Origin: Desulfocapsa sp.
Lineage (GTDB): Bacteria > Desulfobacterota > Desulfobulbia > Desulfobulbales > Desulfocapsaceae
Assembly (NCBI GenBank): GCA_022712895.1
Contig: JAFLJS010000050.1
Location: forward strand, 1 to 62,901
Reading direction: 5' to 3'
Length of the DNA: 62,901 bases
This document shows positions 9,623-37,590 of this stretch, piece after piece (position 1 is the stretch's first letter; every line of letters begins with the position of its first letter). The translations under genes were made by a program, and so were the position numbers. The notes below the pieces were generated by a model. That model did no database searches. It saw only the letters and a list, made by a program, of their open reading frames with translations, and was not told the origin of the DNA.

Positions 9623-11350
9623 TTAGTTTCGATATTGCATATTATACAATTTCTCATATTCGCCACAAATCGCAATAAGCCGGTCGTGGGTACCTTCTTC
9701 AACAATACGGCCATCTTTTACAACAATGATTCGATCTGCATTGCGAATGGTGGAAAGCCTGTGGGCAATAACCAGAGTTGTCCTGTCTTTCATCAGGTTT
9801 TCAAGAGCTTTTTGAACTTCCCGTTCTGATTCTGTATCTAAGGCAGACGTTGCTTCATCAAGCACAAGAATAGGAGCATTTTTAAGAATTGCTCTGGCAA
9901 TTGACAGGCGCTGCCTCTCTCCACCAGAAAGCATCATTCCAGATTCTCCAATGACAGTATCAAGCCCTTTCGGGAGTTTATCGATAAAGGAAAGGGCATG
10001 AGCGGCATCTGCAGCAGATCTGATCTCTTCATCACTTTTATTGGAATCGCCATAGGCAATATTGTTACGAATGGTTTCGTTAAAGAGAATCGTATGCTGG
10101 GTGACGATGGCAATTTGCTCTCGTAATGACTGTAGATTGATATCCCTAATGTCTTGACCGTCAATGGAAATAGATCCTTCTTCAATATCAAAAAATCTCG
10201 GAATAAGATTAATAAGTGTGGATTTTCCGGCACCACTGGGGCCTACAATGGCAAGTATCTGGCCTGCTGGGACAGTGAGGTTTATATTTGTGAGAACAGG
10301 CTCATTTTCATACTTAAAATGAAGATCCTTCATGGCAATTTCCCTTGTAAAGGGTGCCATTTCTTTTGCGTCGGGTTTTGATACGATATCAGGCATAACG
10401 TCAAGCAGAGTGAATACCCGAATGGATGCCGCGAGCCCATGCTGTATGGATGAGTTGATTTTGCTCACTTTTTTTATGGGGTCGTAAATCATGATAAATG
10501 CGGCAATAAAGGCAAAGAACGTTCCTGGTGTTGCGTTGCCTGCAATAACTTCTTTGCCGCCAAACCAGATAGTAATCGCGATAGCAATACTGGCGATGAT
10601 CTCCATCAGGGGGTGTTGCAGTGTGTATATTCGCTTGTCCTCCATGGTAATGGAAAAGAGTGACAAGGCCTGGAATGAAAAACGTTTAGTCTCATATTTC
10701 TCCATGGAAAAAGCCTTGACCACAGGTGCTCCGGTGATGGATTCATGGATGATTTTTGACAATGTCGCAGTTTCTTCCTGGATCTTGGTACCGAGCCGTC
10801 GAAATGCCTTACCGAAATAAACAATGGGAATCGCAGCAGTTGGCAGGAAAATAAGAGAAAGAAGTGCAAGTTTCCAGTTCATGTAGAATATGACAAAAAG
10901 GAGAACAATGACCTGGAAAAAATCGCGTAAAAGCCCTACAACCACAGAAGATATAGAGTTTTGAATCAAACCTACATCGGAAATTAAACGTGATATGAGC
11001 TCACCAGTGGGGTTCTTATGAAAAAAGGAAAGCGATTGTGAATGGATATGCCTGAACAGGGAGACACGCATATCGCGGATCACTGTTTGTCCGATTTTTT
11101 CAAGCAGGTAGAAATTCAGCCCATAAAAGAAGCCTTTCACGGCAAAAAGCACAACCAGAGCAAAGGGCAGAATGGTAAGGTAATAAGTGGATTTCTCAAA
11201 GAAGATCTTGTCCAGTAACGGTTTAACCATATAGGCCTGAGCACCGCTCAAACCTGCGACAACCAGGGCCGCAAACATGGCAATCAAGAACTGGTATCGG
11301 TATGGGTAGATCAGTCTATAGAGGCGCTTGAGAACTGTTTTGTTAGACAT
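9623..11350 (-). CDS. msbA: Lipid A export ABC transporter MsbA, copy 2
   Basis: A 575-residue MsbA paralogue. Six-helix domain followed by an ATPase domain with Walker A GPSGAGKST near residue 370, LSGGERQR and ILVLDEATSALD. By eye it aligns end to end without large gaps with the plus-strand copy at 4878-6599 and shares many identical blocks, including both termini (the ends read YEKLYNMQ in each). The two copies are inverted around a three-gene glycosyltransferase/ligase cassette. A perfect 10-bp palindrome lies 82 bp upstream of its start, toward kdsB. Either both copies serve lipid A or one has specialised for another glycolipid; the sequence does not decide. Confidence 0.94.
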   Translation of the reverse strand: MSNKTVLKRLYRLIYPYRYQFLIAMFAALVVAGLSGAQAYMVKPLLDKIFFEKSTYYLTILPFALVVLFAVKGFFYGLNFYLLEKIGQTVIRDMRVSLFRHIHSQSLSFFHKNPTGELISRLISDVGLIQNSISSVVVGLLRDFFQVIVLLFVIFYMNWKLALLSLIFLPTAAIPIVYFGKAFRRLGTKIQEETATLSKIIHESITGAPVVKAFSMEKYETKRFSFQALSLFSITMEDKRIYTLQHPLMEIIASIAIAITIWFGGKEVIAGNATPGTFFAFIAAFIMIYDPIKKVSKINSSIQHGLAASIRVFTLLDVMPDIVSKPDAKEMAPFTREIAMKDLHFKYENEPVLTNINLTVPAGQILAIVGPSGAGKSTLINLIPRFFDIEEGSISIDGQDIRDINLQSLREQIAIVTQHTILFNETIRNNIAYGDSNKSDEEIRSAADAAHALSFIDKLPKGLDTVIGESGMMLSGGERQRLSIARAILKNAPILVLDEATSALDTESEREVQKALENLMKDRTTLVIAHRLSTIRNADRIIVVKDGRIVEEGTHDRLIAICGEYEKLYNMQYRN

Positions 11351-18043: not shown

Positions 18044-18120
18044 GCACCCGTAGCTCAGCTGGATAGAGCACCAGGCTTCGAACCTGGGTGTCGCCCGTTC
18101 GAATCGGGCCGGGTGTACCA
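18044..18120 (+). tRNA. tRNA-Arg (anticodon UCG)
   Basis: A complete 77-nt cloverleaf with CCA encoded. Anticodon stem CCAGG/CCTGG encloses loop CTTCGAA, giving anticodon TCG, which reads CGA and related Arg codons. T-arm GCCCG-TTCGAAT-CGGGC and D-arm GCTC/GAGC are canonical. The acceptor stem GCACCCG/CGGGTGT closes with a G1-U72 wobble instead of G-C. A terminator follows 11 nt downstream. Confidence 0.97.
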
Positions 18121-36267: not shown

Positions 36268-37590
36268 TTAATCTTCGACAGTACAATCATTTCCTGTACA
36301 AGAAATATTTGCAACAAAGAAGAATGCTTTATATCCATTTTTATTCAGTTCTTGAGCAGCCATGTCAGCACGGGCACCAGTGGTACAGTGAGCATAGATT
36401 TTCTTGTCTTTTGGAATGTCAGCAAGGCGAGAGCCTACCTGGTCAAGTGGTACCGCAATGGCATTTTTAAAACCACCTTCACTGGCTTCATCTGTCGTAC
36501 GTACATCAAGGATAACTGCGCCAGTATCGGCGCCACTGACTGCTTTCATAAAGTCTTCTTTCCCGACTTCACCTTTAGCGAGTTTTCTTACCCAGGAAAC
36601 GTCTGTAACAACAGGGCCAGTTACAGTTTTGCCACCAGTTTTAACCCAACCAGCATAATTTCCGGCAACCAGTGCAATTTTTTTGTATCCTTCGTCACGA
36701 AGATCTTCAGCTGCTTCGTCAGCTTCTTCTATGGAGTCACTGTATAAAACAATGGGTGCCTTTGTGGGGATATCATCAAGGCGGTCATCGAGTGTTTCAT
36801 AAGGAATTGAAATAGAGCGGGCAATGCGGCCAGCCTCTGATTTTTTGATTGAACGGAGATCGATGAGGACAATATTGCCTTTCGCTATATTACCTTTGCT
36901 TGCATAGACCATGTTACCAGCTTTAACCCACGCTGGTTGTCCATCGAGATAAACTTTTACGTTCTTATAGCCATCTTTTTTCGCCAGACCGGCGATCTTA
37001 GTTGACATGCCTCATGTGGGCCCTCCGCAATACATGATGAGAAGCTTATCTTTATCTTTGGGGAGTGCGGAAGCTGCTTTTTTCTTATATGCTTTGGTTC
37101 CAATGCTGATTGCACCAGGCATATGGCTTGCGGCGTATCGTTTTCCAGGACGAGCATCGATGAGTACGAAATCAGTTTTGGCATCGATCAACGTTTTTAA
37201 ATCCGCTGTTTTGATCTCGGAAACACCTTTTGGCAGTTTGGCAAGTTTAGGCTTGATAACTGTGGCCCAAGGCTGACCATCACGCATATCATAAAAAATG
37301 ATCGACGCATGTCCCTTGGCGGCGTGCTCTACACCTTTGGTGTTTTTATCAAATTTGACCATAATGGTCTTGGCCTTCTTTCCCTTGCCGACGACAATGG
37401 AAATACTCTTGGCTTTATTTGATTTTCCAACAACCTTACCCTTGTAAACAGGACCTTTAGACTTTTGTGTTTTTGCTTCAATGGCTGGTTTGGCAGCCTT
37501 CACGGTTGAGCTTGTATCGTGATTACATCCGGTCACCAGAAATGATGCCATGATGAAAAACGGAATCAGCTTAATCATACTTCTCTTCAT
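36268..37590 (-). CDS. Lipoprotein with three rhodanese domains; selenoprotein by in-frame UGA
   Basis: If the TGA at 37012-37014 is read as Sec (residue 193), the frame is continuous for 440 residues. A lipoprotein signal ends in FLVTGC, so the protein sits in the periplasm. Domain 1 (~115-215) has active-site loop YCGGPTUGMS: Cys188 is kept and Sec sits five positions later, where other rhodaneses have Arg or a second Cys. Domain 2 (~220-300) has Ser in place of the catalytic Cys (YSDSIEE) and is probably inactive. Domain 3 (~330-430) has a classic CTTGAR loop. The tail SCTGNDC adds two Cys. AAGGAGGA stands eight bases before ATG 37590. Rhodaneses move sulfur from thiosulfate or persulfides. 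Without Sec the gene would be two fragments, the first ending inside an active-site loop. Confidence 0.88.
36981..36995 (-). promoter_or_regulatory. SECIS-like hairpin in the rhodanese gene
   Basis: On the minus strand TCGCC (36995-36991) and GGCGA (36985-36981) form a perfect 5-bp stem with loop GGUCU, the same apical loop as E. coli fdhF. The loop GU is at +23/+24 after the UGA (37014-37012), identical to the SelW-like gene. Confidence 0.8.

Follow-up and report, generated by a model that had tools for sequence, protein, structure and literature searches.

On the minus strand of the window (the whole stretch of 62,901 nucleotides analysed here), two open reading frames follow each other in the same frame: one of 192 amino acids that ends in TGA (37012-37590), and one of 246 amino acids that starts at ATG (36268-37008). 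Only the TGA and one GGC codon lie between them. Do these frames encode two proteins, or do they form one gene whose in-frame UGA is read as selenocysteine (Sec)? An earlier note, made from the DNA letters, had described this same arrangement and proposed a joined product of 440 residues with Sec at residue 193; translation with TGA read as U gives exactly this protein, with a single U at position 193. Such a gene would be overlooked by annotation because the UGA cuts its reading frame. The features on which the question turns are the following.

36268..37590, minus strand: complete gene from ATG to TAA, 440 codons including one in-frame TGA
37600-37595, minus strand: AGGAGG ahead of the start ATG, seen in the sequence
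37014-37012, minus strand: TGA read as Sec193
36981..36995, minus strand: SECIS-like hairpin, +17 to +31 past the UGA, with the loop GGUCU at +22 to +26

One reading frame across an in-frame UGA

We scanned all six frames of the window for TGA codons with more than 70 open codons on either side and found five. The open runs around the TGA at codon 193 (196 and 248 codons) are by far the longest of the five pairs; the remaining four TGA codons are on the plus strand, lie over minus-strand reading frames and have runs of 74-137. When the gene is compared to six near relatives, dN is about equal on either side of the UGA (0.10-0.19 on both), and dS exceeds 1 in all 11 computable comparisons out of 12, one dS being not computable.

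Selenocysteine and cysteine alternate in a large family

To describe the distribution of the protein, we used searches at several taxonomic levels. In the host order, 237 of 257 genomes contain a match at E <= 0.001, a count to which plain rhodaneses also contribute; the long matches listed for these genomes more often have exactly one TGA than none. The family was found in 12 of the 21 genomes of one further order, and all 12 have one TGA. A sample of the phylum yields matches in 37 of 395 genomes at E <= 1e-40, and in another class 73 of 244 sampled genomes match at E <= 1e-50, with and without TGA. The family is large and conserved, and its members come from bacteria that respire sulfur and metals.

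For the alignment, we chose 100 stretches for genus spread and deliberately added TGA-free cases, so that the proportions given here are no census. Pooled with loci from earlier genome searches, they gave 136 reading frames, and after removal of two short second hits and all duplicates 111 distinct proteins remained, the window's own included. At position 193, 86 of these aligned members have U, 23 have Cys and two have a gap, with a Cys one place earlier in both gap rows; the second loop position is thus Sec or Cys in 109/111. As the test for a bacterial selenoprotein asks, the in-frame UGA is aligned with Cys in homologues. The earlier note had named two observations that would count against Sec, homologues that always end at this position and a sequencing error. 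Neither applies: relatives run on past residue 193, and one error cannot recur in dozens of genomes. In two distant relatives, L124 and L121, the second Cys is shifted by one residue towards the N-terminus (CVGGC--LSP and DIGGC--LSP), and L121 has Asp at the place of the catalytic Cys.

How often Sec and Cys were exchanged was estimated on a FastTree tree of 157 rows, inferred by a fast method that readily joins long branches. On this tree, the Sec/Cys label needs 17 changes, of which starred branches force 15, compared to 44.9 changes for shuffled labels; the direction of the changes is not readable from the tree. If the fast tree is taken at face value, 17 changes within one family would amount to a natural experiment on Sec versus Cys.

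A conserved hairpin accompanies the UGA

The window hairpin (UCGCC-GGUCU-GGCGA) has a loop that starts 22 nt past the UGA. A published model of the bacterial SECIS element has a loop of 3-9 nt, a stem of 4-16 bp, G in the first two loop positions, a spacing of 16-37 nt and an MFE <= -7.5 (PMC13188914). The window agrees with this model, with a loop of 5 nt that begins with GG, a stem of 5 bp and a spacing of +22; the 54-nt piece folds with -11.8 kcal/mol, the hairpin alone with -6.8 kcal/mol. The 54-nt fold has a z of -1.40, with 16 of 200 shuffles folding as well, and no Rfam SECIS family was found at the UGA site.

We then compared 154 distinct loop sequences, 100 from Sec forms and 54 from Cys forms. 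Five genes missed by the motif search were set aside: L017, a TAG-interrupted copy whose TGA falls beyond the scanned stretch, L124 and L121, in which the Cys is shifted, L209, and the second copy in L222. A hairpin whose loop starts with GG at +22 or +23 is present in 99 of the 100 Sec forms, in line with the proposal that a SECIS-like hairpin follows the UGA at the right distance. A hairpin of at most -4 kcal/mol occurs in all 100 Sec forms compared to 14 of the 54 Cys forms, where the hairpins are scattered over +17 to +33. The observed mean of the Sec set is -7.30 against a synonymous-codon null of -3.43 (sd 0.27); for the Cys set, it is -2.47 against -1.93 (0.28).

The four core stem pairs are intact in 100/100 Sec forms. 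In two of them, +18/+30 and +21/+27, both partners are wobble positions; these are paired in only 20 and 26 of the 54 Cys forms (broken in 34 and 28); at +18/+30, four pair types occur among the Sec forms. The other two core pairs are set by conserved Ala codons and are paired also in 49 and 50 of the 54 Cys forms. As a prediction from sequence, the hairpin is convincing through this comparative test, the single-sequence fold alone being mild.

These data also bear on the alternative that the UGA is a true stop and that two proteins are made through reinitiation at the ATG two codons on. The window does have an ATG one codon past the UGA, and Met occupies position 195 in 85/111 members; however, 26/111 have Leu or Phe there, the Cys relatives are continuous, and the hairpin at +22/+23 accompanies the UGA forms. 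We regard reinitiation as extremely improbable.

The genome encodes tRNA-Sec and SelB

In the window's genome, we found a tRNA-Sec with a UCA anticodon (77.3 bits) and SelB (384.3 bits, cut-off 242.25). Both tRNA-Sec and SelB, which one test for a bacterial selenoprotein asks for, are thus in the genome, and the absence of selB and selC, a further observation that would have spoken against Sec, does not hold. Across the order, SelB is present in 217/257 genomes, Cys carriers such as G177 included, so that Sec and Cys genomes are not told apart by SelB. At 1e-60 and with at most five candidates per genome, no SelB match was found in the UGA carriers G115 (98% complete), G153-G156, G158 and G176. 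Five genomes of genera g11 and g12 are among these carriers, including four of the five g12 members. The missing SelB may reflect a limit of the search.

Because Sec and Cys alternate in the family, the hairpin is conserved, and tRNA-Sec and SelB are both present, we conclude that this is, with near certainty, a selenoprotein gene in which UGA-193 is predicted to be read as Sec.

Three rhodanese domains behind a lipoprotein signal

The joined protein contains the following parts.

37525..37590, minus strand: signal peptide and lipobox ending at C22 (FLVTG-C), identified by eye
37240..37458, minus strand: N-terminal five-stranded OB-like domain, residues 45-117 (structure model, fold match to CusF)
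36901..37230, minus strand: rhodanese domain 1, residues 121-230, loop C188-G-G-P-T-U193 (Pfam, model)
37027..37029, minus strand: codon of the catalytic Cys188 (Cys in 110/111 members)
36619..36888, minus strand: rhodanese domain 2, residues 235-324, Ser284 for the catalytic Cys (Pfam, alignment)
36307..36573, minus strand: rhodanese domain 3, residues 340-428, with Cys402 in the loop HCTTGAR (110/111 members have this Cys)
36271..36306, minus strand: C-terminal tail carrying Cys431 and Cys436 (97/111 members have exactly two Cys in the tail)

The Pfam family PF00581 matches above its cut-off (124 bits) in three rhodanese stretches. Cys188 and Cys402 are present in their loops, and domain 2 has no loop Cys: none of the 111 members has a Cys at 283-286. 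Within the loop of domain 1, Cys188 takes the first position and residue 193 the sixth. A Cys is aligned with C22 in 75/111 members, and 80/111 have no further Cys in residues 45-423. The anatomy that had been read from the sequence is therefore right in its three domains, the CxxxxU spacing in the active-site loop of domain 1, the lost catalytic Cys of domain 2, the retained CTTGAR of domain 3 and the lipoprotein signal; what it lacked was the C-terminal Cys pair and the N-terminal OB-like domain.

A structure model from an 88-row alignment is of good confidence (mean pLDDT 90.4, pTM 0.80), with low confidence at residues 21-40, just past the lipobox; the five-stranded domain and the three rhodanese regions follow. 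Folded alone, the N-terminal domain is modelled as OB-like, with CusF as the best match (Z 10.4, rmsd 3.5 Angstrom, 73 aligned residues) and other OB folds at Z 9.0 and below. In the model, residues 45-117 (37240-37458) would resemble the metal-binding OB folds CusF and SilF.

Taken together, the seemingly split gene almost certainly encodes what is predicted to be one sulfur-handling lipoprotein.

Gene neighbourhoods of the family

The neighbours in the window are an S13 carboxypeptidase (D-Ala-D-Ala carboxypeptidase) and FapA. Among the loci inspected, no conserved operon partner was found in Desulfobulbales; the genes that most loci share as neighbours seem to be housekeeping or regulatory when judged by eye, and many are on the opposite strand. 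PADLOC found nothing.

In 10 Cys forms, a PhsA-like Mo enzyme is encoded 14-312 bp downstream on the same strand. These ten come from the 50 Cys rows whose flank spans 900 bp or more, and all belong to one Cys clade of 23 rows. In L138, PhsA is the best-matching model for the Mo enzyme but stays below the model cut-off, and an NrfD-like gene follows the Mo enzyme in L138 and L217. None of 90 Sec rows has a Mo enzyme directly downstream; MopB (Mo enzyme) genes are found upstream of the Sec forms L045, L055 and L126. Since the Sec rows lack this downstream enzyme and the window gene stands between the carboxypeptidase and FapA, it is the Cys relatives in a single clade that provide the nearest operon link.

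A second set of neighbours belongs to the ext genes. In nine genomes, which belong to genera g4, g11, g12 and g14 of a single family, ExtKL is encoded 241-1168 bp upstream on the same strand. The Cys forms L137/L180 (one genome), L182, L186, L219, L220 and L222 have ExtM, ExtN or the run extH-extI-extKL-extM beside them. Of 196 loci (duplicates counted, many with 1.5-kb flanks), 13 show a match to ext genes; the match in L120 is weak, at 32% identity. It could thus be that the protein works with the ext module in the reduction of selenite and tellurite (chalcogen oxyanions): Sec and Cys would bind Se(0) or Se-sulfides and pass on electrons from ExtKL/ExtM-type cytochromes. The adjacency fits this reading, as does the report, in the accessible text of two papers, that loss of extI impairs selenite and tellurite reduction in Geobacter (PMC5877670, PMC6148476). 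Yet ExtKL matches occur in only 97 of the 257 order genomes, the window's genome has two weak hits far below the cut-off, a single one of 20 ExtKL-centred regions (14-19 kb) holds the Sec/Cys rhodanese family, and the nine adjacent genomes come from those four genera. We therefore consider a role in the ext module to be unlikely.

Some further arrangements were observed. The ExtKL cytochrome gene, which directly precedes the Sec-rhodanese in L067 (7557-8897) and also in L063, L087, L089 and L091, has its own in-frame TGA, so that two selenoprotein genes are neighbours in these related genera. Just upstream of the Sec forms L119 (240-713, Pfam DsrE) and L122 (4998-5453, by eye) is a DsrE-like gene. 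In L210 (6958-8346), an octahaem cytochrome directly precedes the Cys form; it matches a tetrathionate reductase family model below the cut-off.

The neighbours of the relatives suggest sulfur or selenium respiration. The earlier note had read the gene itself correctly and had overlooked these neighbours of the Cys-form relatives.

A proposed Cys-Sec relay for persulfide sulfur

What could such a protein do? Since 109/111 members have Sec or Cys at the second loop position and 97/111 have two tail Cys, redox chemistry is suggested. The best explanation of the whole is that of a selenoprotein and periplasmic-side lipoprotein that acts as a Cys-Sec persulfide relay or reductase, and here we see the case as evenly balanced; the redox relay taken by itself stands at about the same middle level. 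A role in sulfur disproportionation is a tentative proposal and rather improbable. We infer the location, the substrate, the direction of the reaction and the partner.

In the proposed mechanism, SelB would decode UGA-193 as Sec with the help of the hairpin directly behind it, and the resulting lipoprotein, which combines an OB-like domain with three rhodanese domains, would sit on the periplasmic side. Cys188 would most likely take sulfane sulfur from thiosulfate or polysulfide and form a persulfide. The selenolate of Sec193 would then attack the Cys188 persulfide, upon which sulfide or handed-on sulfur would leave and a selenenylsulfide, C188-S-Se-U193, would remain. This bond could be re-reduced through Cys402, through the tail residues Cys431/Cys436 or by a respiratory partner, for which a PhsA/Psr-type Mo reductase or a c-type cytochrome would be a candidate.

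The same residues can be read in a simpler way, as an ordinary periplasmic sulfurtransferase or sulfur carrier in which Sec merely raises nucleophilicity and no net redox step occurs. The rhodanese loop of domain 3 with its nearly invariant Cys402 (110/111) and the repeated exchange of Sec for Cys are consistent with such a carrier, whereas the near-constant Sec or Cys at the second loop position and the two tail Cys argue against it, and we hold it to be improbable. A general role in thiol repair or a peroxide-protective selenoprotein of the cell envelope appears highly unlikely. Most predicted selenoproteins are described as homologous to thiol-based oxidoreductases in the available part of one review (PMC9312934), which would suit this role; however, no such genes were seen among the neighbours inspected, partly by eye, while sulfur and cytochrome genes recur.

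A possible link to thiosulfate disproportionation

For the Cys-Sec relay, a more specific role can be formulated. In disproportionating bacteria, the first attack on thiosulfate and elemental sulfur is only partly understood, as far as the accessible portions of two papers tell (PMC9751629, PMC8780430). The protein might be a selenoenzyme dedicated to the step by which inorganic sulfur enters disproportionation in the periplasm, which we regard as a doubtful but specific suggestion. The Cys-Sec rhodanese would split or activate thiosulfate or polysulfide as a selenenylsulfide or persulfide, and sulfur and electrons would be passed to PhsA-type reductases or multihaem cytochromes. A predicted cell-envelope Sec-rhodanese that is conserved in Desulfobulbales is a concrete candidate for the first attack on thiosulfate and S(0). 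Annotation would miss it: standard gene calling splits the gene, and the protein stays below every NCBIfam cut-off.

Desulfolithobacter dissulfuricans GF1 (G070) has an orthologue with TGA at 1,559,692-1,561,002. In the accessible text of a proteomics study, GF1_13980 is the one rhodanese named as found only during thiosulfate disproportionation (PMC9751629). We placed this tag by linear interpolation between two anchors, DctM (TIGR00786, 440.5 bits) near 1,228 kb with tags 10880-10900 and the large subunit of a hydrogenase near 2,011 kb with tags 18090-18100. The tag falls at about 1,564 kb, compared to 1,560 kb for the orthologue, and the nearest other GF1 rhodanese genes are at 1,646 and 1,308 kb. 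It is thus highly probable that GF1_13980, placed here by interpolation rather than by sequence, is the orthologue of the window gene. The part of the deep-Sep table available for GF1 gives 22 known and 0 new selenoproteins (PMC12013277). Since no new one is listed although GF1 carries the gene with TGA, deep-Sep either counted it as a known rhodanese form or missed it. A second rhodanese frame with one internal TGA is found in GF1 at G070 contig C1:813409-813660.

Two further leads come from papers of which a part was accessible. In D. sulfexigens, two rhodaneses have consecutive tags, UWK_03368 and UWK_03369 (PMC3739170), and these may be the two halves of the counterpart gene. In Desulfurivibrio alkaliphilus, polysulfide reductase subunits are described as encoded together with a Mo oxidoreductase and a rhodanese in a highly expressed operon (PMC5516251).

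Comparison with known systems

In NCBIfam, the window protein stays below the cut-off of each of the 20 models that it touches, and 88 members of the family match only seven general or other rhodanese-containing models at E <= 1e-20. TsoB (NF045694, UxxxxU), a rhodanese/DsbD fusion-like selenoprotein, aligns with domain 1 of the window protein and has two loop positions five apart, like C188/U193; in contrast, TsoB has two Sec and, as the name implies, a region from DsbD, whereas the window protein has one Sec and reaches 45.2 bits against a cut-off of 805. The model rhodanese_LYCAU (NF041203) also describes a rhodanese-related (seleno)protein, yet it is a single-domain model of 126 positions with the motif CxU, and the window protein scores 86 bits against its cut-off of 115.

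ExtH (NF040901) is likewise a rhodanese-like lipoprotein found near ext cytochromes, and in L220 a Cys member of the family lies directly upstream of extH. We rejected the idea that the family is ExtH: the window protein has no NF040901 match at E up to 10 (cut-off 200), and NF040901 is absent from the families listed for the 88 members at 1e-20. The true ExtH in L220 scores 404 with NF040901 and has one weak rhodanese match.

In structure, Foldseek matches the three-rhodanese chains YnjE and EanB (PDB 2wlr, 6ktv) over most of the model. Identity to these multi-rhodanese chains is 14-16%, with a chain-wide TM of 0.22-0.25 and an rmsd of 17-18 Angstrom, and such a poor whole-chain superposition of the model does not support a similar packing of the domains. 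In function, a parallel is Sud of Wolinella, a periplasmic rhodanese that feeds a Psr-type Mo reductase; unlike the window protein, Sud is small and is not known to contain Sec.

Among selenoproteins, a catalogue of 2026 gives, in its accessible part, at least five rhodanese forms, of which form 1 is defined by UxxS and PF00581 (WP_010941598.1; PMC13188914). The window protein shares the rhodanese domain and a Sec followed by xxS (U-G-M-S; U-A-L-S in other members). The comparison is one of motif, and form 1 may be the same family. The earlier note was right that Sec-rhodaneses are known from surveys and had missed the several catalogued forms, including the fitting UxxS. The accessible text of a survey of 2006 has no rhodanese among 8 selenoproteins of Geobacter sulfurreducens or 12 of Desulfotalea psychrophila (PMC1794560). 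Among the titles listed in literature searches, none dealt with a triple-domain Sec-rhodanese lipoprotein, and we do not claim that it is unpublished. Sec-rhodaneses as a kind are thus already known and catalogued in several forms; what is added here is a family-wide test, the domain anatomy, a count of Sec/Cys changes, and links to Phs-type genes, ext genes and thiosulfate disproportionation.
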